A stretch of 64,000 bases of DNA from Sneathiella chungangensis. Its GTDB lineage: Bacteria > Pseudomonadota > Alphaproteobacteria > Sneathiellales > Sneathiellaceae. Of this stretch, positions 25,330 through 40,043 are shown piece by piece (the first letter of the stretch is position 1; every line of letters starts with the position of its first letter). Where the stretch lies: positions 691,108 to 755,107 of the forward strand of contig NZ_WTVA01000015.1 of assembly GCF_009882935.1 (NCBI RefSeq), given 5' to 3'. A program made the position numbers and the translations under genes. Under the pieces are notes generated by a model. The model was not told the origin of the DNA, made no database searches, and saw nothing but the letters and a program-made list of their open reading frames with translations.

Positions 25330-26807
25330 TGAGCGACATTTCGGGCATCATCAAATCCATCCAAGACATCATGCGCAAAGACGTTGGTGTCGACGGCGAT
25401 GCGCAGCGTATCGGCCAGATGGTTTGGATGTTCTTTCTGAAGATCTTTGATGATCGGGAAGCTGAAATGGAGCTCCTGGAGGATGATTACCAATCTCCGT
25501 TGCCAGAACATATCCGGTGGCGCTCTTGGGCAAAGGACCCGGAGGGCATCACCGGCGATGCGATGTCAGACTTTGTAAACCTTCAGCTGTTCCCAACATT
25601 AAAACAAAAATTACCTACTTATGGACCGCAGGCTGCACGCGCGCAGGTGATCCGCGGCGTTTTCGAAGATGCCTACAACTACATGAAGTCTGGCACACTG
25701 ATGCGTCAGGTCATCAACAAAATTTGCGAGATAAATTTTAACAATACGGCCGACCGGCACACGTTCGGCAGCATCTATGAGCAAATCCTAAGAGACCTGC
25801 AAAGCGCGGGGAATGCTGGCGAATTCTATACACCTCGTGCCGTAACGCGATTCATCGTAAACCGCGTTGATCCCAAGCTTGATGAGACTGTACTCGACCC
25901 GGCATGCGGTACAGGTGGCTTCCTAGCTTGTGTCGTGGACCACAAGAGAGAAAAATACGTCAATTCGGGTGCTGATGAAAAAGTTCTTCAAAGATCAATC
26001 AAGGGCGTGGAGAAGAAGGCGCTCCCACATATGCTCTGCGTTACAAACATGATCCTGCACGGGATCGACACACCTTCATCTATCATCCATGGCAACACCT
26101 TGGAGCGACCCTATAAGGACTATAGCGAGAAGGACCGCGTAAACATCATCGTCACCAACCCGCCTTTCGGCGGAATGGAAGAAGATGGGATCGAGAATAA
26201 CTTTCCGTCTCAATATCGAACACGTGAGACAGCCGATTTGTTTCTGGCTTTGATCTTGCGACTGCTGAAGCAGAACGGACGTGCGGCCGTGGTCCTTCCA
26301 GACGGGTTCCTTTTTGGCGAAGGTATGAAGACTCGCTTAAAGGAAGCGATCCTGACGGAAGCCAACCTTCACACCATCGTCCGTCTGCCGAACGGCGTCT
26401 TCGCTCCCTATACCGGCATCAAGACCAACATTCTGTTTTTCACCAAAGGCGAGCCGACCAAGGATGTCTGGTTCTACGAACATCCCTATCCAGAGGGTGT
26501 GAAGAACTACAACAAAGGCCGCCCCATGCAGTTTGAGGAGTTCCAAACCGAGATCGACTGGTGGGGAGAAGAGGCAGACGGGTTCAAAGCGCGCCTAGAG
26601 ACCCCGCAGGCTTGGAAAGTCAGCGCCGAAGAACTCGCCGCGCGCGGCTATAACTTCGACCTCAAGAACCCCCATGTGGAAGAAGGAGTTAGCCACGATC
26701 CGGACGAATTGCTGGCCGACTATGCTATTACGCAACGAGAAATCCAGGTGTTGCGCGACCAGTTGAAAGCGATCCTATCTGAGGCACTAGCTGGAGATCG
26801 AAAGTGA
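25329..26807 (+). CDS. hsdM: Type I restriction-modification DNA adenine methyltransferase subunit M
   Basis: 492 residues. An N-terminal helical HsdM domain (residues 1-150) leads into the N6-adenine methylase with motif I DPACGTGGFL near residue 190 and motif IV TNPPFGG near 277. A helical C-terminus follows. It modifies host DNA as M2S and is part of the R2M2S nuclease. It overlaps hsdR by one base and hsdS by four (GTGA), so the three are translated as a unit. Confidence 0.97.
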   Translation: MSDISGIIKSIQDIMRKDVGVDGDAQRIGQMVWMFFLKIFDDREAEMELLEDDYQSPLPEHIRWRSWAKDPEGITGDAMSDFVNLQLFPTLKQKLPTYGPQAARAQVIRGVFEDAYNYMKSGTLMRQVINKICEINFNNTADRHTFGSIYEQILRDLQSAGNAGEFYTPRAVTRFIVNRVDPKLDETVLDPACGTGGFLACVVDHKREKYVNSGADEKVLQRSIKGVEKKALPHMLCVTNMILHGIDTPSSIIHGNTLERPYKDYSEKDRVNIIVTNPPFGGMEEDGIENNFPSQYRTRETADLFLALILRLLKQNGRAAVVLPDGFLFGEGMKTRLKEAILTEANLHTIVRLPNGVFAPYTGIKTNILFFTKGEPTKDVWFYEHPYPEGVKNYNKGRPMQFEEFQTEIDWWGEEADGFKARLETPQAWKVSAEELAARGYNFDLKNPHVEEGVSHDPDELLADYAITQREIQVLRDQLKAILSEALAGDRK

Positions 26808-28531
26808 CGGATGTAAACCAGCTTATCACCGAGCATCTGGATATCTGGACTTCGGCGACTGAGAAGAAATCTAGCGCGGGTCGCGGAAATGGTGGCGCGG
26901 TCAGCCTCTATGGAATCAAGAAGCTTCGTGAGTTGATCTTAGAGCTTGCTGTACGCGGGAAGTTGGTGGAGGCTAAAGAGCTTTCGAGTGAAGAATCATC
27001 CGCGTACGTTTCGCAACTGTTGGATAAAAAGAATGACCTCTATAAGCAAGGAAAAATCCGTAAGCCCAAAAAATACTCTGACGTGTCTCACGCGGAAATT
27101 GGTTTCGCGGTACCAACGAATTGGTCGAGCGTTCGACTTGGAAAAATAGCTACAAAGATAACTGACGGCTCCCACAATCCTCCTAAGAATGTTGGTTCCG
27201 GTATTCCAATGCTCAGCAGCCAGAATGTGAATTTTGGCCGCATCGATTTTGACAATCCTACTAGATTTGTGACCCGATCGGATTATCTTGCCGAGAATGA
27301 GCGGACTGCGATTGAAGTTGGTGATGTCTTGCTGACGATAGTTGCATCCTTAGGGCGTTCCGCTGTGGTGCCAAATAACTTCCCTGAATTTGCTCTTCAG
27401 AGAAGCGTTGCGGTTGTCCAAACCGGGTTGGAGCCCGAATTTCTCTGTTTGCTATTTCAATCACCTCTTTGTATGGACTATTTTTGGAGAAACGCAAAGG
27501 GTACAGCTCAAAAAGGAATATATTTGGGGAAGTTGGCTGAGATGCCGATAATTGTGCCTCCGCTTGCTGAACAACACCGTATCGTGGCTAAGGTAAAAGA
27601 ACTGATGGGGCTTTGCGATGCGCTGGAGACGCAGACCGAGGACAGCCTCAAGGCGCACCAAACCCTCGTCGAAACCTGCCTCGCCACCCTCACCAACAGC
27701 CAAACCCCCGAAGACCTCTCCCAAAACTGGGCCCGCATCGAGAACCACTTCGACACTCTCTTCACGACCCAGGAGAGTGTTAAACAATTAAAAAACACCG
27801 TTTTCAAACTAGCGGTCAGCGGGCACTTGGTTGAGCAGATAGAATACGAAAATCGAAGCAATCAAAAAAACCTTCGACCAGACGCGCAGGCTGAGAAATA
27901 CGACCTTTCAGCATTTGAAGAACAGGCAAAGAAGTTCCAGCTTCCCAAAGGCTGGGTAATTCAACCATTAAGTCGTGTAACTTCTCACATCGTCGACTGC
28001 CCTCACACCACCCCAAAATGGACCGATTCTGGAGAGTTGTGCGTCAAGTCTAATCAGATTTATGCGAGACACCTTGATCTTTCTGAACCTAATTTTGTGT
28101 CTTCCCAGACCTACTTGGAGCGGATCGAACGGCTAGAACCAAAAGAAGATGACATTCTTTACAAAAGAGAGGGCGGAATCCTTGGAGTAGGTGCGCGAAT
28201 TCCCAAAGGAACGCGGGTGTGCCTTGGGCAGCGCTTGATGCTTATCCGTGCCGGTGAAGCGGTCCTGGCAGAATTCCTTGAGTTAGTAATTAACTCTCCT
28301 TGGATCACAAATTTCGCGGAAGAAAAGACCACGGGTGGCGCAGCTCCAAGGGTGAATATGACGCTGGTTCGAGCCTATCCTATTCCTGTCCCCCCCATGG
28401 ACGAACAAAAGAGAATTTTGCGGCGCGTCAGAGATTTGGTTCAGCGCTGCAGTCTCATCGACGGCCATATGCAAAGTGCACGATCAATAGAGCGTGACCT
28501 GGCCGATGCTCTTACTTTAAGGATTCATTGA
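26804..28531 (+). CDS. hsdS: Type I restriction-modification specificity subunit S
   Basis: 575 residues, from a GTG overlapping the hsdM stop. It is built of two target-recognition domains, each followed by a conserved helix: LAEQHRIVAKVKELMGLCDALE after the first (about residue 252-273) and MDEQKRILRRVRDLVQRCSLID after the second (about 528-549). The first recognition domain starts at VPTNWSSVRLGKIATKITDGSH, the second at LPKGWVIQPLSRVTSHIVDCPH. The bipartite DNA target cannot be deduced. The 3' part of the first half is more GC-rich than its surroundings (27600-27770), in line with domain exchange by recombination. Confidence 0.95.
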   Translation: MTDVNQLITEHLDIWTSATEKKSSAGRGNGGAVSLYGIKKLRELILELAVRGKLVEAKELSSEESSAYVSQLLDKKNDLYKQGKIRKPKKYSDVSHAEIGFAVPTNWSSVRLGKIATKITDGSHNPPKNVGSGIPMLSSQNVNFGRIDFDNPTRFVTRSDYLAENERTAIEVGDVLLTIVASLGRSAVVPNNFPEFALQRSVAVVQTGLEPEFLCLLFQSPLCMDYFWRNAKGTAQKGIYLGKLAEMPIIVPPLAEQHRIVAKVKELMGLCDALETQTEDSLKAHQTLVETCLATLTNSQTPEDLSQNWARIENHFDTLFTTQESVKQLKNTVFKLAVSGHLVEQIEYENRSNQKNLRPDAQAEKYDLSAFEEQAKKFQLPKGWVIQPLSRVTSHIVDCPHTTPKWTDSGELCVKSNQIYARHLDLSEPNFVSSQTYLERIERLEPKEDDILYKREGGILGVGARIPKGTRVCLGQRLMLIRAGEAVLAEFLELVINSPWITNFAEEKTTGGAAPRVNMTLVRAYPIPVPPMDEQKRILRRVRDLVQRCSLIDGHMQSARSIERDLADALTLRIH

Positions 28532-28537
28532 AACTAG

Positions 28538-30385
28538 ATGCGCCTGAAATCCGTCTGGATCGGAGATTACAAGAACCTCCATAACTTCTCCCTCACTTTC
28601 GACGGGAACAGTTTTCTTGACGTCTTTGTCGGCAAAAACGGGACAGGGAAGTCAAATTTCTTCGAAGCACTCATTGAGATATTTCGCCACATTTACGACA
28701 GCACCAACGAGCTTGATGCAATCAGTTTCGACTATGAAATATCGTATGAGATTGAAGGCACGGAAACCACAATAGCCTTTCGGGGTGAAGTCTTAACGAT
28801 TAACGGTCGTGAAAGAAAGACAGTCGGGCGAACCCCCGTGCCAGACAATGTGCTCGTCTATTACTCAGGTCATAACGACACGATTGCAACGCTGATAAAA
28901 CGCTACGAAACGACCTTCCGGCGGCGTATTCGTGGCGCCGAGGTTGGTGAAAGCCGGAAGTTCATCGGAGTTGGCCCAGAGTACAAACAACTGTTGTTAT
29001 CGATACTCCTAATGCAGCCAGTTGATTGTCAGGCACGGGATTTCATCCAGGAAAAACTTAAAATTGAAATTCTGGGCACCGAGACAAATCTCGTCCTCTC
29101 CCGCCCTCGATTTGCCGAGGGGATGGAAGTCGATCCATTTGATGCCGGAACATTCCTTTGGGGCATAGAGGGGATCGTTCGCGACTTTCTGGACAAGCTT
29201 TTAGGCTGCATAAAGGATGAATACACTCCCGGATCGTTATATGATCGCGACGCCGATCAGTTTTCCATTCCGATAAATCTGGACTTGTTCCGCACCGCTT
29301 TCGAAAAGGTTGAGCCCTCAGAGTTATTCCGCAGTTTCGACAACATTCGGACCTTGGAAATGATCAAGGACATATCGGTTCCTATCACGCTGGAGGGTGG
29401 GATCAAAGCGACTACCGGTCATTTCAGTGACGGCCAATTTCAATCGATCTACATCTATTCAATTTCGGAACTTTTCAAAGATCGGAACTGCGTCAGCTTG
29501 CTCGATGAGCCGGATTCATTTCTGCACCCAGAGTGGCAGTTCGATTTTTTGAAGCAGGTCACTGAGATCACCGGGGCTGCATCACAAAGCAATCATGTTC
29601 TGTTGAGCAGTCACAGTGCGTCGACCATCGCTAGGACGAGCGAAGAAGATATCCGGATGTTCGAGTTTGATGGTGATTTTGTCACCATCCATAGCTCAAA
29701 TAGGTCTGCTATCATCCGATCTCTTTCTGCCGGCCTGATTACATTCTCGGAAACTGAAGCCAGATTGAACATTTCATTCATATTGAAGAACACGACTAGG
29801 CCTATTCTCTTCACCGAGGGCATCACAGATGAGTTGATACTTGAGACCGCATGGCAAAAATTGCGCGATGGAGTTCAACGTCCATTTGAGATACAGAACG
29901 CTTTTAGTTGCGGCTTCCTTCGCAATTTGTTGAAAGAGCAAAATCTCTATGACTCGAACCCAGGGAGGAAGTTTCTGGGCCTTTTCGACTTCGATGAAGC
30001 TTATAACGACTGGGTGCAACTGGGTGCTGATTTCGAGACCGACCCGACTAAGTGTTTGGGAAAGAAACTAAACGGCAGAGAAGGTTATGCAATGCTGCTA
30101 CCTGTTCCACAAAACCCCCATATTAGACAGCAAGTGCTGAATTCGGACACTGGCGGTCATTACGCAAACCGGTCTCTTCTGACCATCGAGCTCTTATTGT
30201 ACGGCGTTCCTGGATTAAACGCATACTTTGAAATCGATCAGTCGCGTCCAGAGCGTTTTACCCGGTTCATTGGTGACAAGGTCCACTTTGCAACCGACGT
30301 CGTGCCGACTGTTTCAGCTGAACACTTTGCAGCCTTCAAGCCGATTTTCGAGAGTATTGAAGGGATTGTCGGCCCAGCTGTCTAA
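28538..30385 (+). CDS. OLD-like AAA ATPase with TOPRIM region, linked to the type I system
   Basis: 615 residues. An SMC/ABC-like ATPase is split around a middle insertion: Walker A VGKNGTGKSNFFEA near residue 30, signature-like FSDGQFQS, Walker B SLLDEPDSFLHPEW near 328 and H-loop LLSSHSAST. The C-terminal part starts ILFTEGITDELIL and has LFDFDEAY, which look like the Glu and Asp positions of a TOPRIM nuclease, as in OLD-family proteins. It follows hsdS by 6 bases in the same operon. Relatives beside hsd genes (Rlo-type) or in Gabija-like systems act in phage defence, so a helper or independent defence role is inferred. Confidence 0.8.
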   Translation: MRLKSVWIGDYKNLHNFSLTFDGNSFLDVFVGKNGTGKSNFFEALIEIFRHIYDSTNELDAISFDYEISYEIEGTETTIAFRGEVLTINGRERKTVGRTPVPDNVLVYYSGHNDTIATLIKRYETTFRRRIRGAEVGESRKFIGVGPEYKQLLLSILLMQPVDCQARDFIQEKLKIEILGTETNLVLSRPRFAEGMEVDPFDAGTFLWGIEGIVRDFLDKLLGCIKDEYTPGSLYDRDADQFSIPINLDLFRTAFEKVEPSELFRSFDNIRTLEMIKDISVPITLEGGIKATTGHFSDGQFQSIYIYSISELFKDRNCVSLLDEPDSFLHPEWQFDFLKQVTEITGAASQSNHVLLSSHSASTIARTSEEDIRMFEFDGDFVTIHSSNRSAIIRSLSAGLITFSETEARLNISFILKNTTRPILFTEGITDELILETAWQKLRDGVQRPFEIQNAFSCGFLRNLLKEQNLYDSNPGRKFLGLFDFDEAYNDWVQLGADFETDPTKCLGKKLNGREGYAMLLPVPQNPHIRQQVLNSDTGGHYANRSLLTIELLLYGVPGLNAYFEIDQSRPERFTRFIGDKVHFATDVVPTVSAEHFAAFKPIFESIEGIVGPAV

Positions 30386-30732: not shown

Positions 30733-32085
30733 TTAACTTCCGGCGCTGATCTCGCGGACAATCTCGGCTTCGATCAGATCGGGGTTATGGGGTCCGCGGT
30801 CAGCGGTGCGCCAGGTGAAACTGTCAAAACTATCACAGGCCGGGCAATGCGCGTGCCAGTTCTCTTCCTGCCGTCCGCAGGCATTGCAGATCCAGAGCGG
30901 GTCCTGCGGCGCCACCGCGCTTTTGACAATCCATTCCCGGGCGGCGAACGCGTCGGCATTCGCCTTCTCCTCCAGCTCGGCCAGCATCCGGAGGATACTC
31001 GCCGAGGGATGATCCCCGCCGGCCTTCATCAAATGCTCCCGCGCGGGGCCCCAGTCCCGAGACGCCAGCGCCGCCTTGGCCAGCATCAGATGCGTCTCCA
31101 CATGATCGGGGTTATGCGGCGCCACGGTCTCCTTGGCCCGGCGCAGCCAGTCGGCAGGCTGCTCGCCAGAGACGGTCTTGCGGATTGCCTCCGCCAGATC
31201 GCGATGCGGCGCATGTTTCCAGGTTTCGCCGATCAGCTTGTGCAGCTTGCGCGACGAGCCCTGATCCGCCGTCAGCTTCACGGCCAGAACGGCAGCGGGC
31301 ACGAAGGTGGGGTCCAGGTCATGGGCCTGCTCGGCCAGGGAGAGCGCGTCCGCGTCCCGTTGGTTCCTGACGGCCGCCAGCGCCTGTTCGTAGGTAATGA
31401 CCGCCCGGGCGCGGCGCACGGCGTCACCCTTGGCCGCTTTGCCGCGCGCCATCCGGGTCAGGGCCTGTTCCGCCGCCTCCCAGTCGCGCAGCTTCAGCGC
31501 CAGTTCGTACAGCTCCTTGACAACCCAGGAGGTCCCGGGCCGGAGTTCATCGGCGCGGCGGGCCAGATCGCGCGCCTTTTCAAGATCGCCCTCCTTTATC
31601 GCCCTGTTGATCAGGCCGCGAAGCCCCAGAAACTCCGTATCCTGCCGCGCCATCATCCGGTCGTAGTATATGCTGGCTGCGCGATTATCCTCGTTGAGTT
31701 CCGCCGCCTGCGCGGCCAGCAGGAGGGTCATGGGCTCGCCCGAGAGATGCTTCTCCGCGGCAATGGCCTGGCGGCGCGCCTCATCCGCATCGCCGGCGGC
31801 AATCGCAACCATGCCGTTCGAAATCGCCTCAAGCCCCTTGTCCCGGCGGCGGGCGGAAAAAATGGCGCCGATACGCCCCGGGCCATGCTTGAGCCAGATC
31901 CAGAACCGGTAGGCAAGCGCGACAAGGACGGCAAACACAAGCGTCATGGCGCCGACGACGACGATCGATGTTTCGACCACATAGCCGCCCCAATTCAGAC
32001 GCACGTCACCCGGATATTCGGACAGCCAGACGGCGGCCATCGCAATGGCGACGATCAGGGCAAAGACGATGATGATGCGTAACAT
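30733..32085 (-). CDS. hemY: HemY-family membrane TPR protein of the heme cluster
   Basis: 450 residues. Two membrane helices at the N-terminus (IIIVFALIVAIAMAAVWL and AMTLVFAVLVALAYRFW) form the HemY_N domain. TPR-like helical pairs follow to about residue 380. A zinc-ribbon-like CNACG...CPACD near residues 395-415 lies at the end, close to an Arg/Trp-containing tail. It is the last gene of hemC-hemD/mic60-hemY. Despite the name its role in heme synthesis is not settled; it is thought to organise late, membrane-bound steps or the inner membrane. This is not the protoporphyrinogen oxidase HemY of Gram-positives. Confidence 0.88.
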   Translation of the reverse strand: MLRIIIVFALIVAIAMAAVWLSEYPGDVRLNWGGYVVETSIVVVGAMTLVFAVLVALAYRFWIWLKHGPGRIGAIFSARRRDKGLEAISNGMVAIAAGDADEARRQAIAAEKHLSGEPMTLLLAAQAAELNEDNRAASIYYDRMMARQDTEFLGLRGLINRAIKEGDLEKARDLARRADELRPGTSWVVKELYELALKLRDWEAAEQALTRMARGKAAKGDAVRRARAVITYEQALAAVRNQRDADALSLAEQAHDLDPTFVPAAVLAVKLTADQGSSRKLHKLIGETWKHAPHRDLAEAIRKTVSGEQPADWLRRAKETVAPHNPDHVETHLMLAKAALASRDWGPAREHLMKAGGDHPSASILRMLAELEEKANADAFAAREWIVKSAVAPQDPLWICNACGRQEENWHAHCPACDSFDSFTWRTADRGPHNPDLIEAEIVREISAGS

Positions 32086-32095
32086 GTCGGCCCCT

Positions 32096-34165
32096 CTAGT
32101 TGGACGTCGGGGCGGAAACCGCCGTTGTCGTTGCGGCCTGCAGCAATCCGTTGATGGACTGCTCGACGGTCAGGCGGGTTTTTGCTTTTTCAAGCCACGG
32201 AGCGGCGACGTCCGCCGCCGCACCAGAGAGCTTGTCGATTTCCGCGACCGCCTTGTCGAGATCGTTATTCGCAAGGCTTTGCTCCGCCCGGGCGACGATG
32301 GCGTCGACATCGTCGCCTTCATAATCATCAACCCGGCGGAATTTAATGGCGGAGGCAATGCGATGGAGCGCCTGACCATACCAGGTTTCCTCGGAGGGAA
32401 GCCGCGCCGACTGGCTGATATCCGTGGCGATGGAGGCGAAATCCCGTTGCAGAGAGGCCATGGTCGGCGCGCCGACCGGGGCGATCGGCTGCAATTGCTC
32501 AAGCAATCCGGCAAACTTGTCATTCGCAACCGCGGATACCTGTTTCAGGCCGTTTTCAAACGGTTCGTTCGTGCGGGTTTCGCGCTGAAGCTGACCGACA
32601 GCGAGAAGCATCAGCGTGCGCTGGTTCTCCGCCTCCTCCTCCGTCTTGCCGGCAATTTCCGCCTTCAACGCCCCTTCAAGGGACGAAATCTGCGACGCCT
32701 GCGCCTTCACGGTATCGCGGTCACTGGCGAGTTCCGTCTGCAGGCTGCTCATCTGCGTCTTGATATCCAGCAGCGCCGTTTTCAGATCGACAATCTGATT
32801 CTGGACTTCCGGGCTGAGGTCGGCGACCGCGGGTTCCGCTTTTTCAAGCTCGGCGATGCTGTCCTGCTGGCGGTCGAGTTTTTCAAGCGCAGCGGCGAGA
32901 TTTTCCTGCTGTTCCTCGATCTTGCCCGAAAGGCCGTTCAGCTCTTCTTTCAGCGCCCCCGATAATGTCGCGAGCTGGCCGTCATCCGTGACCGTCCCGC
33001 CCGCCGTGTTGGCAACCTTCTCCTCCAGCGCCGAAATCCGATCCGACAGCGCGGCATATTCCGTTTTCAGATTGTCCCGGACGGCTTCGATCGCGGCCGT
33101 GGCATCCGACATATCCGATGCCGTCGCCTTGCCGAATTGGCCCGAGATGATCGCCGCTGTTTCCGCCGGCAGATAGGGTTCGACCTTGGGGTACAGCAGC
33201 GGCCAGGCCGCAAGGCCGAGACAGAAGACAACGACAAGGGCGCCGACGATCAGACCTGCGCGGGATTTCGGCTTTTCCGTTGCCGCCGATTCCGTGGCGC
33301 CTTCGCTTGCGGTATTCCCGGCGGTTTTCGTTTCGCTCTTATCCGTACCGGCGACCGGCACGGCGGTTTTCGCCTCACCCTCTGTCTTGCCAGAATTTTT
33401 ATCGGACATTTTTCGCTCCCTTGGCGTCTCGTCGCTGTGTAACTTATGCTTAGCTTGGCCGACAGCCGTCAGCAAGGCAAGCAGGTTTTCCTGATTGGGC
33501 TCCGCTGCGACTTCGACGGCCTCCCAGGACAATTCGGATATCTTTTCCGCAACGGCCGCACTCAGGCAATAGGCGGTCATGTTTTTCAGATAGGGCGCCA
33601 GGCCGGAGGCGACGACCAGCCCGGCGAAAATGGCTGCTGTGCGCGGCGAATAGAAAAGAGCCGCCGGAATCGCCCCCGCCTTGATCTCCTTTACGATCCG
33701 CGTCTCGAGGGAGGTAACCGGCAGCGCCTCGTAAAGAACGACACGCTCACATTGGAATCCCTTCTCGGTGAGCATGCCGGAGAGATCCCCGGCAACTTCC
33801 GATCCCGCGACATGGATAAGCCTCCCATCTTCCGGCTTGGCGTCAGCAACGACCTTTGCGGCCAGGGAATGCACATCGCCGCCCGCCGCCGCGACGTCGT
33901 TAAAGCCTTCCTGGCGCACCGCCTCCGCCGTTGCGTCGCCAACGGCAAAGACCTTTATCTTCCTCTCTTTCAGCGCCGGACCCAGCGCCCGGGCGCCGTT
34001 CGCGCTGGTGATGAGCAACGCCTGCGCACCGTCGGCGTCAATCTTCCTGTCGCCGAAGGTTTCGATATGCATCATCGGCGCAATACGCGTTTCATGCCCC
34101 ATTTTTTTCAGGATGCGGGCAAGTCGGCTGCCATCCGGTTCCGGTCTGGTGATCAATATTTTCAT
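32096..34165 (-). CDS. hemD: Uroporphyrinogen-III synthase fused in frame to a Mic60/mitofilin-like membrane protein
   Basis: 689 residues without a stop between two usual genes. Residues 1 to about 240 are HemD: MKILITRPEPDGSRLARIL at the start, LLITSANGARAL, HVAGSEVAGDLSG and ALFYSPRTAAIF; this part closes hydroxymethylbilane to uroporphyrinogen III. After a linker, Met253 (33409) has its own AGGGAG seven bases before it and begins a Mic60-like protein. That part has a charged cytoplasmic tail, one membrane helix (AGLIVGALVVVFCLGLAAW, about 299-317), a long coiled coil and a C-terminal mitofilin signature region. Stops in another frame near 33448 mean a single indel would separate the two. 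Internal initiation may also give free Mic60. Confidence 0.85.
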   Translation of the reverse strand: MKILITRPEPDGSRLARILKKMGHETRIAPMMHIETFGDRKIDADGAQALLITSANGARALGPALKERKIKVFAVGDATAEAVRQEGFNDVAAAGGDVHSLAAKVVADAKPEDGRLIHVAGSEVAGDLSGMLTEKGFQCERVVLYEALPVTSLETRIVKEIKAGAIPAALFYSPRTAAIFAGLVVASGLAPYLKNMTAYCLSAAVAEKISELSWEAVEVAAEPNQENLLALLTAVGQAKHKLHSDETPRERKMSDKNSGKTEGEAKTAVPVAGTDKSETKTAGNTASEGATESAATEKPKSRAGLIVGALVVVFCLGLAAWPLLYPKVEPYLPAETAAIISGQFGKATASDMSDATAAIEAVRDNLKTEYAALSDRISALEEKVANTAGGTVTDDGQLATLSGALKEELNGLSGKIEEQQENLAAALEKLDRQQDSIAELEKAEPAVADLSPEVQNQIVDLKTALLDIKTQMSSLQTELASDRDTVKAQASQISSLEGALKAEIAGKTEEEAENQRTLMLLAVGQLQRETRTNEPFENGLKQVSAVANDKFAGLLEQLQPIAPVGAPTMASLQRDFASIATDISQSARLPSEETWYGQALHRIASAIKFRRVDDYEGDDVDAIVARAEQSLANNDLDKAVAEIDKLSGAAADVAAPWLEKAKTRLTVEQSINGLLQAATTTAVSAPTSN

Positions 34166-34176
34166 TGCGGCTTAGT

Positions 34177-35118
34177 TTACAGGCCAAATGACAATTTGGC
34201 ACCCCTCGCCTGCGTCTTTAACTCCGCGCCGATACGTTCGCCGAGTTTTACCGCGTTTTCGATGTCGTCGCGTCCGCTTGCATCAAGGCGGACAGAGCCG
34301 TCTTCCGCCAGCAGGCTGGCGCGGAAATAAAGAATGTTGCCCTCGACCAGTTCCGCATATCCCGCAATCGGCGTCCGGCAGGATCCGTCAAGAACCGCGA
34401 GCATGGCCCGCTCGCAGGAAATCCGGGCGAGACTGACCGAATCACTGATCGGTGCAAGCAGGGCGGCGACGTCATCGTCATCGGCGCGCCGCTCGATCCC
34501 GATGGCCCCTTGCGCCACCGCCGGCAGCATGTCATCGACATTGAGCAGCTCGGTAATAACCGCTTCATTGCCGAGGCGCTTGAGCCCGGCGAGCGCGAGC
34601 AAGGTGGCGTCCGCCTGACCTTCCGCAAGCTTACGCAGGCGTGTCTCGACGCTGCCGCGGAAAATACCGACTTTCAGATCGGGCCGCCGGTTCAGCACTT
34701 GCGCCTGCCGCCGAAGGCTCGACGTTCCAACAAGCGCACCCGCCGGCAGATCGGCCAAGCCCTTCCCGCTCGCGGAAATAAAGGCGTCCCGTGCATCCTC
34801 GCGCGGCAGGATGCAGTCAATTATCAGACCCGGCGGCAATGTCGTCTCCATATCCTTCATCGAATGAACCGCGAAATCGATACGGCCGGAGAGCAGCGCC
34901 TCCTCGATTTCCTTGACGAACAGGCCCTTGCCACCCGCCTCACTGAGAGCCCGGTCCTGAATCTGATCGCCCGTGGTCTTGATCACGACAATCTCGAGCT
35001 GATCCGCCGTGAGCGCAGTCTCATGCGCCGCGAGAAGCCGGGTGCGGGTCTCCTCCGCCTGGGCGAGCGCAAGCGGACTTCCCCGGGTGCCGATCCTGTA
35101 TTTTTTGACAAAGGCCAT
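34177..35118 (-). CDS. hemC: Porphobilinogen deaminase (hydroxymethylbilane synthase)
   Basis: 313 residues, start at the ATG at 35118 (MAFVKKYRIGTRGSPLALAQ). Motifs: GTRGSPLALAQ, KTTGDQI, FVKEIEEALL, AVHSMKDMET, and the dipyrromethane-cofactor cysteine in LDGSCRTPIAGY. It joins four porphobilinogens into hydroxymethylbilane for HemD, which is encoded 11 bases downstream. It is divergent from tsaD with 66 bases between the starts. Reading further upstream in the same frame would run antisense through tsaD and is rejected. Confidence 0.96.
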   Translation of the reverse strand: MAFVKKYRIGTRGSPLALAQAEETRTRLLAAHETALTADQLEIVVIKTTGDQIQDRALSEAGGKGLFVKEIEEALLSGRIDFAVHSMKDMETTLPPGLIIDCILPREDARDAFISASGKGLADLPAGALVGTSSLRRQAQVLNRRPDLKVGIFRGSVETRLRKLAEGQADATLLALAGLKRLGNEAVITELLNVDDMLPAVAQGAIGIERRADDDDVAALLAPISDSVSLARISCERAMLAVLDGSCRTPIAGYAELVEGNILYFRASLLAEDGSVRLDASGRDDIENAVKLGERIGAELKTQARGAKLSFGL

Positions 35119-35184
35119 GTTGCGGGATATTCCCTCAGATGTTAGTGCTTCGCGCAATTTGCATTGCTTTGTAATAGAAAACAA

Positions 35185-36255
35185 ATGCCAAACAAACAAG
35201 TAATCGTCCTCGGGCTGGAAAGCAGCTGCGATGAAACGGCGGCTGCGGTGGTGACGGCGGAACGTGAAATTCTTGCCAATGTCGTCCTCTCGCAGAATGA
35301 TGCCCATGCGCCCTTTGGCGGCGTGGTGCCGGAGATTGCCGCGCGCGCGCATGTGACCGAGATGGACCGTCTGGTCGATCAGGCGATGACGGAGGCCGGC
35401 CTTTCCTATTCCGACCTCTCGGCCGTCGCCGCGACGGCGGGGCCAGGCCTGATTGGCGGTGTCCTTGTTGGGTTGATGACGGCAAAGGCGATTGCGTCGG
35501 TCGCGGGCGTGCCGCTGATCGGCGTCAATCATCTGGAGGGACATGCGCTGACGGCGCGGCTAACCGGAAAGGCGGACTTTCCCTATCTGCTGCTGCTGGT
35601 TTCGGGCGGGCATTCGCAATTGCTGGTGGTTGAGGGCGTGGGACGGTACCGGCGTCTGGGCACGACGATCGACGATGCGGTCGGCGAGGCCTTCGATAAA
35701 ACGGCGAAGATGCTCGGCCTCGGCTTTCCGGGCGGCCCGGCGGTTGAGAAAGCGGCAAAATCCGGCGATCCGGACCGCTTCGATTTTCCGCGGCCGATGA
35801 AAGGGCGGGAGGGATGCAATTTTTCCTTTTCCGGCCTCAAGACGGCGGTGCGGCAGGCGCGCGAAGCGCTGGGCGAGACAGCCGGCGAACAGGATATAGC
35901 CGATCTGGCCGCCAGCTTTCAAAAGGCGGCGGTCGAAAGCCTGATGGATCGCGTTGGCAAGGCGCTTGATCTTTTCAACGACGAATATGGACCCGGCCGC
36001 GAGCTGGTTGTTGCCGGTGGAGTCGCCGCCAATCAATGCCTGAAGGCGGCGCTTGAAACACTGGCGCGGGATAAAGGCGTGACATTGCGGGTCCCACCGC
36101 CGAAACTCTGCACCGATAACGGGGCGATGATCGCCTGGGCGGGGATCGAACGCCTTAATGCCGGATTTACGGATACGCTTGACCTTGCGGCCCGCGCGCG
36201 CTGGCCGCTCGACCCGGATGCCGAACCGGCCCCCTTCGCCGGATATAAAGCTTGA
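35185..36255 (+). CDS. tsaD: tRNA N6-adenosine threonylcarbamoyltransferase TsaD
   Basis: 356 residues from the ATG at 35185. It shows the ASKHA ATPase fold: [14 protein letters not shown] at the start, metal ligands in [10 protein letters not shown], the nucleotide-binding VSGGHSQLL, the segment [18 protein letters not shown] and [12 protein letters not shown]. It makes t6A37 in tRNAs reading ANN codons together with TsaB and TsaE, which are not in the window. The divergence from hemC and the order tsaD-rpiA-gpsA-yciI-like are recurrent in alphaproteobacteria, apart from rpiA. Confidence 0.97.
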
Positions 36256-36274
36256 CTAGAAATGGAAAGTGACG

Positions 36275-36952
36275 ATGACCGAAGACGAACAGAAACAGGC
36301 CGCCGCCGAAAAGGCGGTTGAATATATCGAAGACGGCATGGTTGTCGGCCTCGGCACCGGATCCTGCGCCGCAAAGATGGTCGACCTGCTCGGGAAAAAG
36401 GTCGCGCATGGACTCTATGTCACCGGCGTTCCGACGTCCGAGGCGACGGCGGCCCAGGCGCGCGCGCTCGGCATTCCGGTTGTCGGTCTGGATGAAGTCG
36501 GCGTCATCGACCTTACCATCGACGGCACCGACGAGGTCGATCCGGAAGGGCGCCTGATCAAGGGCGGCGGCGGCGCGCATCTCCGCGAGAAGATCGTTGC
36601 CTCCCTCTCCGATAAAATGATTGTCATTGCCGAGGCCAAGAAAAAGGTGGCCCGACTTGGCGCCTTCAAGCTCCCCGTGGAGGTGATCCGATTTGCCGCG
36701 CCGGCGTTGAAACCGAAGCTGGAGGCCCTCGGCTCCACCCCGATATTGCGCCAGGGCAAGGACGGCAATCCCTTCGTTACGGACGAAGGCAACTATATCT
36801 ATGACTGCGATTTCGGCGTGATCGACGATCCGGAGGGGCTGGCCCTCGAGCTCAGCACCATGCCGGGCGTCGTCGAGCATGGCCTGTTTATCGGCTATGC
36901 CGATCTCGTCCTGATCGGCACGGACAGCGGTGTCGAAGTGATCGAAGTCTAG
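36275..36952 (+). CDS. rpiA: Ribose-5-phosphate isomerase A
   Basis: 225 residues. The ATG at 36275 is preferred because GGAAAG lies 5 bases before it; a GTG two codons earlier would overlap that site. RpiA motifs are VGLGTGSCA, DLTIDGTDEVD, LIKGGGGAHLREK and VIAEAKKKV. It interconverts ribose 5-phosphate and ribulose 5-phosphate. It stands 19 bases after tsaD in the same direction. Confidence 0.96.
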   Translation: MTEDEQKQAAAEKAVEYIEDGMVVGLGTGSCAAKMVDLLGKKVAHGLYVTGVPTSEATAAQARALGIPVVGLDEVGVIDLTIDGTDEVDPEGRLIKGGGGAHLREKIVASLSDKMIVIAEAKKKVARLGAFKLPVEVIRFAAPALKPKLEALGSTPILRQGKDGNPFVTDEGNYIYDCDFGVIDDPEGLALELSTMPGVVEHGLFIGYADLVLIGTDSGVEVIEV

Positions 36953-37055
36953 CGTGCCGTCACGTCGCGCCGTTTCATTCTCCACTTCTTGTTGGCGGCG
37001 GATCATGGTAATCAAGCCTATCTGAAACGCCGGAAAATCAGGACAAGCGAGGCAG

Positions 37056-38057
37056 ATGACCAAAGTAAATGTAATCGGCGCCGGTGCGTTTGGAACGGCC
37101 TTGGCAATAACGGCCAAGAAAGCCGGAAATGATGTACTCCTCTGGACCCGGCATCGCGATCATGCTGACGCGATCAATTCAGAAAAAGGCAATAGCAAAT
37201 ATCTCGATAATGTTTCTTTAACGCCCGGGGTTGAGGCAACTTCGGAACTGGCGCGGGCAGGTAATGCAAATATCCTGCTCTTGGCGGTCCCTGCGCAACA
37301 TGTCAGGGAAATCCTAGCCCAGCTCAAACCATGGCTCGCGCCGGAAACAGTGCTGGTAATGTGTGCCAAGGGGATTGAGCAGGACAGCGGATTGTTGATG
37401 AGCGAAGTCATGGCGGAGATCGCGCCTACCAATCCGATCGCGATCCTGTCAGGACCAAACTTCGCCCGGGAAATTGCTTTGGGGCTACCGACGGCGACGA
37501 CGCTCGCCTGCCGAGATCGGGAAATTGGTGAGGATATCGTGAAGGCCATTGGCCTACCGGCCTTTCGTCCGTATCTGACCGATGACGTAATAGGCGCCCA
37601 GGTCGGCGGGGCCGTAAAGAATGTGCTGGCTATTGCCTGCGGCGTCGTATCGGGCGGCAAGCTTGGGGAGAATGCCCGCGCGGCCCTGATCACCCGCGGC
37701 ATGGCGGAAATCCTGCGGCTCGGGGAAAAGCTCGGCGCGCGGGCGGAAACACTGATGGGTTTATCTGGACTGGGGGATGTTGTCCTTTCCTGCAGCTCTC
37801 CCGCTTCTCGCAACTTCTCACTCGGCGCGGCCCTTGGTCAGGGAGATATTCTCGGCGAAATATTGCAGCAACGTATCGCTGTTACCGAGGGGGTATATAC
37901 CGCCTCCGCGATCTGCCGCCTCGCGGAAAAATTCAATATCGAGATGCCGATCTGCTTTGCCGTCAACGAAATACTGAATGGCGGCGTGGCCGTTTCCAAC
38001 GCGGTTGAGGAATTGCTGGCGCGGCCGTTCAGGGACGAACGACTCGCAGGATTTTAA
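37056..38057 (+). CDS. gpsA: Glycerol-3-phosphate dehydrogenase [NAD(P)+]
   Basis: 333 residues. Rossmann motif VIGAGAFGTALA, the core SGPNFAREIALGLP and the catalytic lysine in VGGAVKNVLAIACG, with ALITRGMAE and MGLSGLGDV further on. It reduces dihydroxyacetone phosphate to sn-glycerol 3-phosphate for phospholipid synthesis. The first third of the gene is less GC-rich than its neighbours but shows no break. A YciI-like gene follows after 17 bases. Confidence 0.97.
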   Translation: MTKVNVIGAGAFGTALAITAKKAGNDVLLWTRHRDHADAINSEKGNSKYLDNVSLTPGVEATSELARAGNANILLLAVPAQHVREILAQLKPWLAPETVLVMCAKGIEQDSGLLMSEVMAEIAPTNPIAILSGPNFAREIALGLPTATTLACRDREIGEDIVKAIGLPAFRPYLTDDVIGAQVGGAVKNVLAIACGVVSGGKLGENARAALITRGMAEILRLGEKLGARAETLMGLSGLGDVVLSCSSPASRNFSLGAALGQGDILGEILQQRIAVTEGVYTASAICRLAEKFNIEMPICFAVNEILNGGVAVSNAVEELLARPFRDERLAGF

Positions 38058-38074
38058 ATTACAGGGAGACTTTT

Positions 38075-38362
38075 ATGCTGTTCATCGCTCATTGTACCGA
38101 CAAGGCTGGCCATTTGCAGGTCCGGCTCGACACCCGTCCTGACCATCTCGCCTTCCTGGCCGAAAAGGGCAGCGCGCTGAAAATCGGCGGACCGACGCTC
38201 GCTGAAGACGGCGAAACGCCGAACGGCAGCCTTCTGATATTCGAAGACACCGACCTCAAATCCGCAAAAGCCTGGGTCGCCAAAGATCCTTACGGCGCCG
38301 CCGGTCTCTTTGAAAGCGTCATTGTACAGCCCTGGAAACATGCCATCGGCGGCGGATTGTAA
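38075..38362 (+). CDS. YciI-family protein
   Basis: 95 residues: MLFIAHCTDKAGHLQVRLDTRPDHLAFL with the family's conserved His and Asp, then LIFEDTDLKSAKAWVAKDPYGAAGLF. The fold is a small ferredoxin-like dimer with a putative His-Asp active site; a general reaction is not known. It follows gpsA with GGGAG as ribosome-binding site, as in many alphaproteobacteria. Confidence 0.9.
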   Translation: MLFIAHCTDKAGHLQVRLDTRPDHLAFLAEKGSALKIGGPTLAEDGETPNGSLLIFEDTDLKSAKAWVAKDPYGAAGLFESVIVQPWKHAIGGGL

Positions 38363-38448
38363 AGGCGGCGGCCAAGATTGCCTTTCGGTTGAAATTGTGA
38401 TGTAGTACCCCCCTCCAAATAACAATAAAAACAAGAACGGGTGGTCAC

Positions 38449-39609
38449 ATGCTATTTTCAGAAGAGCATATCGCGCTCAAAAATACTGTAAACCGGATCA
38501 TTGACGAGCATATCAATCCCAATGTCGATGCATGGGAGGACGCCGGAATCTTCCCCGCGCATGAGGTGATGAAACGCCTTGCGGAGGCCGGCCTGCTCGG
38601 CATCGGAAAGCCCGAGCAATATGGCGGACTCGATCTCGATTTCTCCTATGAGATGGTCTTCGCCGAGTCCCTCGGCGGTATTCGCGCGAACGGTGTCTCG
38701 ACCTCCATCGGCGTGCAGACCACCATGTGCACGCCTGCACTCACCAAATATGGTAGCGAAGAGCTGAAACAGGAATTCCTGGTCCCGACGATCGCCGGAG
38801 ACCTTGTTGGTTGCATCGGCGTCAGCGAGGAGACCGCCGGTTCGGACGTCGCCAACACCCGGACATTCGCCCGGCGCGATGGCGACGATTATGTGATCAA
38901 CGGATCGAAGATGTGGATCACCAACGGCGTGCAGGGGGACTGGATCTGTCTTCTTGCCAACACGTCGGAGGACGGAGGGCCGCATCGCAACAAATCCCTG
39001 ATCATCGTGCCGCTGAAAACCAAGGGTGTCTCGGTTGCCCGCAAGCTCGATAAGCTGGGATTGCGATGCTCCGATACCGCGCAGCTTTTCTTCGATGACG
39101 TCCGCGTGCCGGCGCGCAACCGGATCGGCGAGGAAAACATGGGCTTCACCTATCAGATGCGGCAGTTTCAGGAGGAACGGCTGTTCGTCGCCGCCCGGGC
39201 ACTGCGCGGCATGGAGATGGCGATCGAGGATACCATCGACTATACGGGCCAGCGGAAAGTCTTCGGCGGCACCATCCTGGATAACCAGGTCGTCTATCAC
39301 AAAATGGCGGAGATGCAGAGCGAGCTGGAAGCGGCGCGGGCGCTCCTCTACCGGACGACGGAGCAATATGTCGCCGGTGAGGATGTCACCAAGCTCGCCT
39401 CCATGACCAAGTTCATGATGGGCAGCCTCGCCAATAAAATCCCGAGCGCCTGCTTGCAATATTGGGGCGGACAGGGCTTTATGTCGGAGAACTGGATTTC
39501 CCGCGCCTATCGCGACCTTCGCCTGACCGGGATCGGCGGCGGCGCCAACGAGATCATGCTGGAGATTATCGCCAAGCAGATGGGAATTTATCCGGGAAAG
39601 CGGAACTAG
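38449..39609 (+). CDS. Acyl-CoA dehydrogenase
   Basis: 386 residues with the three ACAD domains. ISEETAGSD-like binding appears as CIGVSEETAGSDVANT, FAD contacts as KMWITNGVQGDW, and the C-terminal helices include LRLTGIGGGANEIMLEIIAKQMG. The usual catalytic Glu of the Y-E-G-T motif is Gly here; QEERLF near residue 242 offers a Glu at the place used by long-chain and isovaleryl-CoA dehydrogenases. It oxidises an acyl-CoA to the 2-enoyl-CoA with electron transfer to ETF. Chain length cannot be told. Confidence 0.93.
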   Translation: MLFSEEHIALKNTVNRIIDEHINPNVDAWEDAGIFPAHEVMKRLAEAGLLGIGKPEQYGGLDLDFSYEMVFAESLGGIRANGVSTSIGVQTTMCTPALTKYGSEELKQEFLVPTIAGDLVGCIGVSEETAGSDVANTRTFARRDGDDYVINGSKMWITNGVQGDWICLLANTSEDGGPHRNKSLIIVPLKTKGVSVARKLDKLGLRCSDTAQLFFDDVRVPARNRIGEENMGFTYQMRQFQEERLFVAARALRGMEMAIEDTIDYTGQRKVFGGTILDNQVVYHKMAEMQSELEAARALLYRTTEQYVAGEDVTKLASMTKFMMGSLANKIPSACLQYWGGQGFMSENWISRAYRDLRLTGIGGGANEIMLEIIAKQMGIYPGKRN

Positions 39610-39629
39610 CCTCACTCGAAGGAGAATTG

Positions 39630-40043
39630 ATGAATTACTGGCTTGTGAAATCGGAACCCGGGACCTGGTCCTGGCAGGATCAGCTCGATGCGGGCGACAA
39701 GGGAACCTTTTGGGACGGCGTCCGGAATTACCAGGCCTCGAATAACCTCAAGGAAATGAAAATCGGCGACCTTTGTTTCTTTTATCATTCCGTCAAAGAG
39801 AAACAGATCGTCGGCATTGTCGAGGTCATCAAGGAATATTACCCCGACCCCAGCGATAAAAAGGGCCGTTTTGGCATGGTTGACGTGAAGGCGGTGAAGG
39901 CGCTGCCCAACCCTGTAACTCTCGCCGATATCAAGGCCGATCCGCGCCTTGAGAATTTCGGGCTGGTCCGTCAGAGTCGCCTGTCCGTCGTTCCCGTCGA
40001 CGAGGCAACCTGGAACCTGATCTGCAAGATGGGCGGGCTTTAG
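39630..40043 (+). CDS. EVE domain protein
   Basis: 137 residues, starting at the ATG after GGAG at 39630. The EVE/PUA-like fold is clear: MNYWLVKSEPGTWSWQDQ, GVRNYQASNNLKEMKIGDLCFFYHS and a C-terminal NFGLVRQSRLSVVPV. EVE domains bind modified bases in DNA or RNA; the role of the free-standing bacterial form is unknown. It follows the acyl-CoA dehydrogenase by 20 bases. Confidence 0.92.
   Translation: MNYWLVKSEPGTWSWQDQLDAGDKGTFWDGVRNYQASNNLKEMKIGDLCFFYHSVKEKQIVGIVEVIKEYYPDPSDKKGRFGMVDVKAVKALPNPVTLADIKADPRLENFGLVRQSRLSVVPVDEATWNLICKMGGL

Follow-up and report, generated by a model that had tools for sequence, protein, structure and literature searches.

A hemD-mic60 open reading frame with a conserved internal start for Mic60 in Sneathiella

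HemD and Mic60 domains in one frame of the hem operon

The marine bacterium Sneathiella chungangensis carries a hem operon in which a HemD domain and a Mic60/mitofilin protein, both intact, are joined in a single open reading frame. The operon lies on contig NZ_WTVA01000015.1 in the stretch of 64,000 nucleotides that was analysed as a whole (the window), and its features are collected in Table 1. As the original prediction had noted, no stop divides the two parts, and the Mic60 part keeps an AGGGAG and an ATG of its own.

Table 1. Positions of the hemD-mic60 frame, its parts and its operon neighbors in the window
Feature	Positions	Strand	Basis
hemY, TPR protein	30733..32085	-	HemY_N E 9.3e-26; TIGR00540 117.1 bits, under the cut-off of 142
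hemD-mic60 single open frame, 689 aa	32096..34165	-	ORF listing and Pfam matches
Mic60 reading frame from internal start, 437 aa, MSDKNSG...	32096..33409	-	
Pfam Mitofilin match, residues 359-672, coiled coil and mitofilin core	32150..33091	-	
Predicted transmembrane helix region, residues 303-331	33173..33259	-	AF2 helix and hydrophobic stretch
Linker, residues 236-302, variable, probably disordered, contains internal start	33260..33460	-	AF2, genus alignment
Internal ATG start of Mic60	33407..33409	-	Start column of 21 genus genes
Internal Shine-Dalgarno AGGGAG, in frame, Arg249-Glu250	33416..33421	-	Genus conservation
HemD domain (candidate uroporphyrinogen-III synthase), residues 1-235	33461..34165	-	Pfam HEM4, AF2, VIA-align
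hemC, 313 aa	34177..35118	-	TIGR00212 E 3.5e-100; start placed by eye

Both halves are recognized by Pfam, HEM4 (PF02602) at residues 14-229 (E 3.9e-34, 118.2 bits against a gathering score of 27.5) and Mitofilin (PF09731) at residues 359-672 (E 1.2e-20, 74.5 bits against a gathering score of 27.4), and a profile search of the genome returned a single match to each family, both of them this frame. Compared with its best NCBIfam equivalog, PRK09189, the HemD half scored 146.3 bits, under the cut-off of 223. In the AF2 model of the 689-aa protein (mean pLDDT 78.6, pTM 0.41), the HemD fold is confident, most of residues 1-230 having pLDDT above 90. Structural comparison by VIA-align matched the HemD half to HemD of Pseudomonas aeruginosa (4es6; Z 21.2 at residues 1-236, rmsd 3.5 over 233 residues) and to nine more HemD entries at Z 14.3-20.7; all rows concern residues 1-242, so the lack of Mic60 structures among the rows is uninformative. 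By profile and fold, the HemD half is thus a candidate uroporphyrinogen-III synthase. In the remainder of the model, pLDDT falls below 50 at residues 245-302, in the linker, and helices occupy residues 303-331, the place of the membrane helix, long stretches between residues 350 and 529, and a helical domain at residues 537-683. At the sequence level, residues 615-676 align with the solved MIC60-MIC19 fusion 7pv1 (E 7.2e-5). The Mic60 half therefore has an N-terminal membrane helix, a coiled coil and a C-terminal mitofilin domain, and may bend membranes, a property needed for intracytoplasmic membranes.

The hemC stop lies 11 nt upstream of the hemD start, and the hemY start lies 10 nt downstream of the hemD-mic60 stop. 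Almost no Shine-Dalgarno sequence precedes the hemD ATG (34166-34179, minus strand), and in 11 of 20 genus genes this start does not reach a pairing of -3 kcal/mol. Given the short distance from the hemC stop and the near absence of a Shine-Dalgarno sequence, translation of hemD is likely coupled to that of hemC.

An alphaproteobacterial operon of the order hemC-hemD-mitofilin (IMMP)-hemY, head to head with tsaD-gpsA-yciI-EVE, has been described (PMC7641849). The locus studied here resembles it in hem gene order, in the adjacency of hemD and mic60 and, by eye, in the divergent tsaD, gpsA, yciI and EVE genes. It differs in that hemD and mitofilin are listed there as separate genes, and the passages describing that operon mention neither a fusion nor an internal start. 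Two observations concern the surroundings. On the plus strand, at 35164-40043 and divergent from the hem operon, we assigned by eye tsaD, rpiA, gpsA, yciI, an acyl-CoA dehydrogenase gene and an EVE protein gene, of which rpiA and the acyl-CoA dehydrogenase gene look inserted into the published order (PMC7641849). Just past hemY, at 26804-30385 and also on the plus strand, a type I restriction specificity-like ORF is followed by an AAA-type ATPase ORF, again as judged by eye.

Fused and separate genes in Sneathiella and other Alphaproteobacteria

A scan of named genomes placed the nearest relatives within the genus (S. litorea, S. sedimenti, S. chinensis and MAGs). The original prediction had proposed comparing the junction in close relatives, and this comparison favored the fusion: no separate hemD and mic60 genes were found among the 23 same-genus genomes searched (G001-G023), and all 21 aligned genus genes, the window's and 20 others, are open across the junction. 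The frame reads through the junction in 20 of the 23 genomes, in G009 only from residue 130 at a contig end. Two genomes, G008 and G018, are not part of the set of 21 aligned genes. G018 has an open junction with AGGGAG, 6 nt and GTG in place, in a frame cut by a contig end; in G008, a draft of S. glossodoripedis, the junction is open despite frame changes inside hemD, mic60 and hemY. G005, which is 66% complete, gave no match. As a separate point, the frame changes in the S. glossodoripedis JCM 23214 draft (L168 / L025) are most likely assembly errors.

Identity to the window's gene ranges from 32 to 74% for 19 of the 20 other genus genes. The partial gene L014 was omitted from the identity and motif alignments and from the simulation described below (20 rows), and was kept in the Shine-Dalgarno table (21 rows). 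The genus sequences are related rather than independent, and form 8 clusters at 50% identity.

Fusion is not restricted to Sneathiella. Among 100 alphaproteobacterial loci, 29 are fused, 63 are split and 8 have no Mic60 match beside HemD; of these last, L113 is just 900 bases long, and the genome of another (G066, locus L079) has a Mic60 match on another contig. The class search covered 192 genomes, of which 152 matched. The loci, from 100 genomes, were drawn among the matches listed and picked by hand from the HemD hits, mostly better scoring ones away from contig ends; 99 came from the class search, and one from a genome of the window's own family (G024). The fused loci span 22 GTDB family codes, this family included, and both states occur inside four GTDB families (f16, f29, f85 and f95). 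Eighty named loci, whose genomes overlap those of the 100 such that the counts are not to be added together, comprise 22 fused, 53 split (the S. glossodoripedis draft counted there), 4 without Mic60 and 1 without HemD.

On a tree of 112 HemD and Mic60 pairs (49 fused, 63 split), the states require 21 changes, compared with 36.7 for shuffled labels, and none of 500 shuffles was as low as 21. The tree is poorly resolved and its well-supported branches force just one change, and for this reason we claim recurrence only from the four families that hold both states. The same-family gene of G024 (L133) is fused, yet stands apart from Sneathiella in the tree.

Many of the fused class genes also have a possible internal start. 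In 20 of the 29, HemD is followed 5-30 codons later by an in-frame ATG, where 500 base shuffles gave a mean of 4.8 and a maximum of 12, and this ATG often opens a Mic60-like sequence (such as MSDD, MADD or MSEQ). In 14 of the 29, such an ATG is accompanied by pairing of -5 kcal/mol or better (shuffle mean 1.3, maximum 6). The shuffles preserve base composition only, and the test was devised after synonymous recoding of the whole linker, a weak test, had given p < 0.1 in 3 of the 29 class genes with a median p of 0.46. Conversely, three of the 29 (L041, L070 and L092) and Terasakiella pusilla (L161) have no ATG or GTG between HemD and the membrane helix, such that Mic60 seemingly exists only as a fusion in these four; T. 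brassicae (L155) does have one. The loci thus form a series of states, with separate genes, fused genes with two starts and fused genes with one, to which we assign no temporal order.

Selection on the junction and the internal start

We consider it probable that hemD and mic60 truly fused, long ago, into one gene with two translation starts, giving a long HemD-Mic60 and a free Mic60. The closest competitor is neutral read-through, in which the stop was lost once, Mic60 became a harmless tail on HemD, the internal start supplies all the Mic60 that is of use, and being fused serves no purpose. Neutral read-through shares the two starts with the preferred reading, so the odds of the two are not exclusive, and it is in keeping with the strong retention of the internal start. 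Moreover, fusion can be one mutation away: the HemD and Mic60 frames agree in 22 of the 63 split class loci, about as expected by chance, and in 15 of the 63 a single in-frame stop is all that separates HemD from a frame opening straight into Mic60. However, if the junction were neutral, stops should return easily. The linkers of 20 genus genes, counted from residue 235 up to the internal start, have lengths of 11, 15, 17, 18 or 20 codons and vary in sequence, and a mean of 7.1 single changes per linker would create a stop, yet none of the 20 has one in frame, while the other two frames hold 6 and 29. We simulated neutral evolution on the gene's own tree 400 times at each of four scalings of the third-position branch lengths. 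All tips stayed free of linker stops in no run at full or half length, in 4 runs at a quarter and in 50 at a tenth. Since the full branch lengths never gave this outcome, the frame appears to be held open by selection. With the rate cut to a tenth of that at third positions, open frames would be unremarkable, which counts against the preferred reading; selection would be dispensable only if the linker evolved about ten times more slowly than third positions, and the linker sequence does not suggest that. The four genes with neither ATG nor GTG before the membrane helix also speak against a tail whose useful product comes entirely from an internal start. We therefore regard neutral read-through as unlikely.

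A different possibility is that the linker is cleaved, freeing HemD and making the fusion a form of synthesis only. The length, variability and predicted disorder of the linker would suit this, but by eye there is no conserved cleavage motif beyond the residues that spell the Shine-Dalgarno sequence and the start, and cleavage would leave the internal start with nothing to add as a source of free Mic60. Such processing is improbable in our estimation.

The internal start itself bears on a simple obligate fusion, in which the 70-kDa protein alone is made and the AGGGAG-ATG pair is a relic. Fusions of other families that have no internal ATG or GTG provide a precedent, but a relic should decay like the rest of the linker, and the AGGGAG-ATG pair is instead its best conserved part. 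The start column in the 21 genus genes holds ATG in 10, GTG in 11 and nothing else, and the exchange is confined to these two codons even in genes down to 32% identity with the window's; elsewhere in the genus genes, GTG makes up 28% of Val codons. AGGGAG, separated from the ATG by 6 nt (two codons) in the window's gene, is found in 15 of the 21. A purine-rich, Shine-Dalgarno-like block is present in all 21, in the same place in 20 (L017 differs), although the patterns were picked after looking. Ranked by weighted conservation, the 6-nt Shine-Dalgarno window tops the 104 windows of the linker and comes ninth among the 778 of the gene. In all 15 genes with Arg at this position, the codon is AGG, which accounts for 12.8% of Arg codons in the genus genes.

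Predicted pairing points the same way. Only 12 of 431 other in-frame ATG or GTG codons pair as strongly with the anti-Shine-Dalgarno sequence of the 16S tail, and in 19 of 20 genus genes the internal start pairs more strongly than the hemD start (means -7.6 and -2.5 kcal/mol). Synonymous recoding before the internal start was less uniform, the observed pairing reaching p < 0.05 in 13 of the 21 genes only; the other 8 are no clear outliers, with p up to 0.5 where the residues are Gly-rich. Taken together, the conserved start and the Shine-Dalgarno-like block in 21 of 21 genes, at normal spacing, have the form of in-frame internal initiation, and since this pair is the best conserved element of the linker, we favor one frame with two products over a simple fusion. 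An obligate fusion with a relic start is therefore very improbable, and the gene would make both HemD-Mic60 and free Mic60. The original prediction had seen the AGGGAG and the ATG but drew no conclusion from the pair.

The original prediction had left a true fusion and a recent frameshift or sequence error side by side, and of these the fusion stood: separate hemD and mic60 genes hidden by an error are hardly credible, since the same open junction occurs in 20 other aligned genus genomes, several of them in 1-10 contigs. The stops in another frame near 33448 that had raised this suspicion exist (TAA GCA TAA in the -1 frame, 33452-33444), but -1 frame stops occur in 16 of the 21 genus linkers where 15.7 are expected with the linker codons shuffled, so they do not indicate a recent indel. 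A search of the 21 genus genes that began 45 codons ahead of the internal start also found no in-frame slippery heptamer X XXY YYZ. Programmed -1 frameshifting as a means to end HemD was considered as well, and was rejected on this result and on the codon-shuffle level of the -1 frame stops.

HemX, the heme metabolon and possible roles of the fusion

HemD-HemX fusions occur in other Proteobacteria, and the original prediction aptly drew a parallel with them: they likewise join HemD to a one-helix coiled-coil membrane protein encoded in the same operon slot, and the E. coli order, hemC-hemD-hemX-hemY, is that found here with hemX in the place of mic60. The partner here is Mitofilin and not HemX (PF04375): a Pfam scan of the protein, taken up to E 1, did not list HemX, and the genome has no match to it. 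The mitofilin of the operon has been termed a diverged HemX homolog (PMC7641849), and our profile comparison agrees weakly with this view. By hhalign, Mic60 and HemX gave a probability of 79.6% over 53 columns, a weak resemblance, compared with 11.8% for a Mic60-HemD control; the HemX alignment includes at least one row that is likely in the wrong frame (L220, 704 aa against a 374-aa frame) and was left in. In the 27 genomes with HemX matches, the frame is 319-528 aa long in 26, apparently unfused by size, and 622 aa long in one.

Genes with a Shine-Dalgarno sequence and a start inside one frame, which give two isoforms, are known in bacteria for CheA, IF2, ClpB and CcmM. The hemD-mic60 gene has the same arrangement; unlike in those genes, the starts here would separate an enzyme-tagged from an untagged membrane organizer. 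In our model of a fusion with two starts, ribosomes coming from hemC would make the 689-aa HemD-Mic60, with a cytosolic HemD, a flexible linker of ~65 residues, one membrane helix, and a periplasmic coiled coil and mitofilin domain, a topology that we infer from Mic60 in general. Ribosomes that bind the internal AGGGAG and initiate at the ATG at 33409 would make the free 437-aa protein, an ordinary Mic60. HemD would then never occur free and would be held at the membrane at every site of Mic60, while Mic60 would be a mixture of HemD-bearing and HemD-free forms, the two starts determining their ratio. The suggestion in the original prediction that heme synthesis is anchored to the crista-type organizer would follow from this anatomy. 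If the internal start is used, free Mic60 is overlooked in these species when each frame is annotated with a single product.

Only Alphaproteobacteria and mitochondria have Mic60 (PMC9764997), and alphaproteobacterial Mic60 acts in intracytoplasmic membranes (cited in PMC12136173 and PMC12631773). The protein described in these sources and the window's share the membrane helix, coiled coil and mitofilin domain, and differ in that the long form here bears HemD at its N-terminus. In mitochondria, MICOS proteins, MIC60 among them, interact with a heme metabolon, and Hem15 is less active when MICOS is lost (PMC9163361). That interaction lends support by analogy to our hypothesis that tethering may serve heme synthesis at membranes. 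In both cases an enzyme of heme synthesis is physically linked to Mic60; the mitochondrial link, as that source presents it, is a complex and involves the last enzyme, whereas here it is a covalent fusion and involves HemD. Tentatively, many Alphaproteobacteria may tie an early heme enzyme covalently to Mic60, with HemD placed at membrane junctions and, in Sneathiella, the internal start setting the enzyme-bearing share. On the same tentative footing, the mitochondrial link of MICOS to the heme metabolon could have a bacterial counterpart in the fusion, and perhaps a forerunner in kind.

Searches of open-licence full texts brought up no paper on a HemD-Mic60 fusion or on an internal start within it; the bacterial Mic60 papers of 2015, 2016 and 2023 are outside that scope and may mention the fusion. 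A covalent HemD-Mic60, found throughout the genus and in 22 of the sampled family codes, makes a link between heme synthesis and membrane shaping testable in culturable bacteria.

Finally, some fusions of other families carry a further domain. The carph-isopro domain NF046037 is absent from the matches of the window's protein in the profile scan, and lies between HemD and the membrane helix in L048, L068, L102 and L110. All four of the proteins scanned matched it, at E values from 8e-15 to 8e-18, along with weak Cro/HTH matches. This would place a DNA-binding-like module on a membrane organizer, presumably on the cytosolic side of Mic60.
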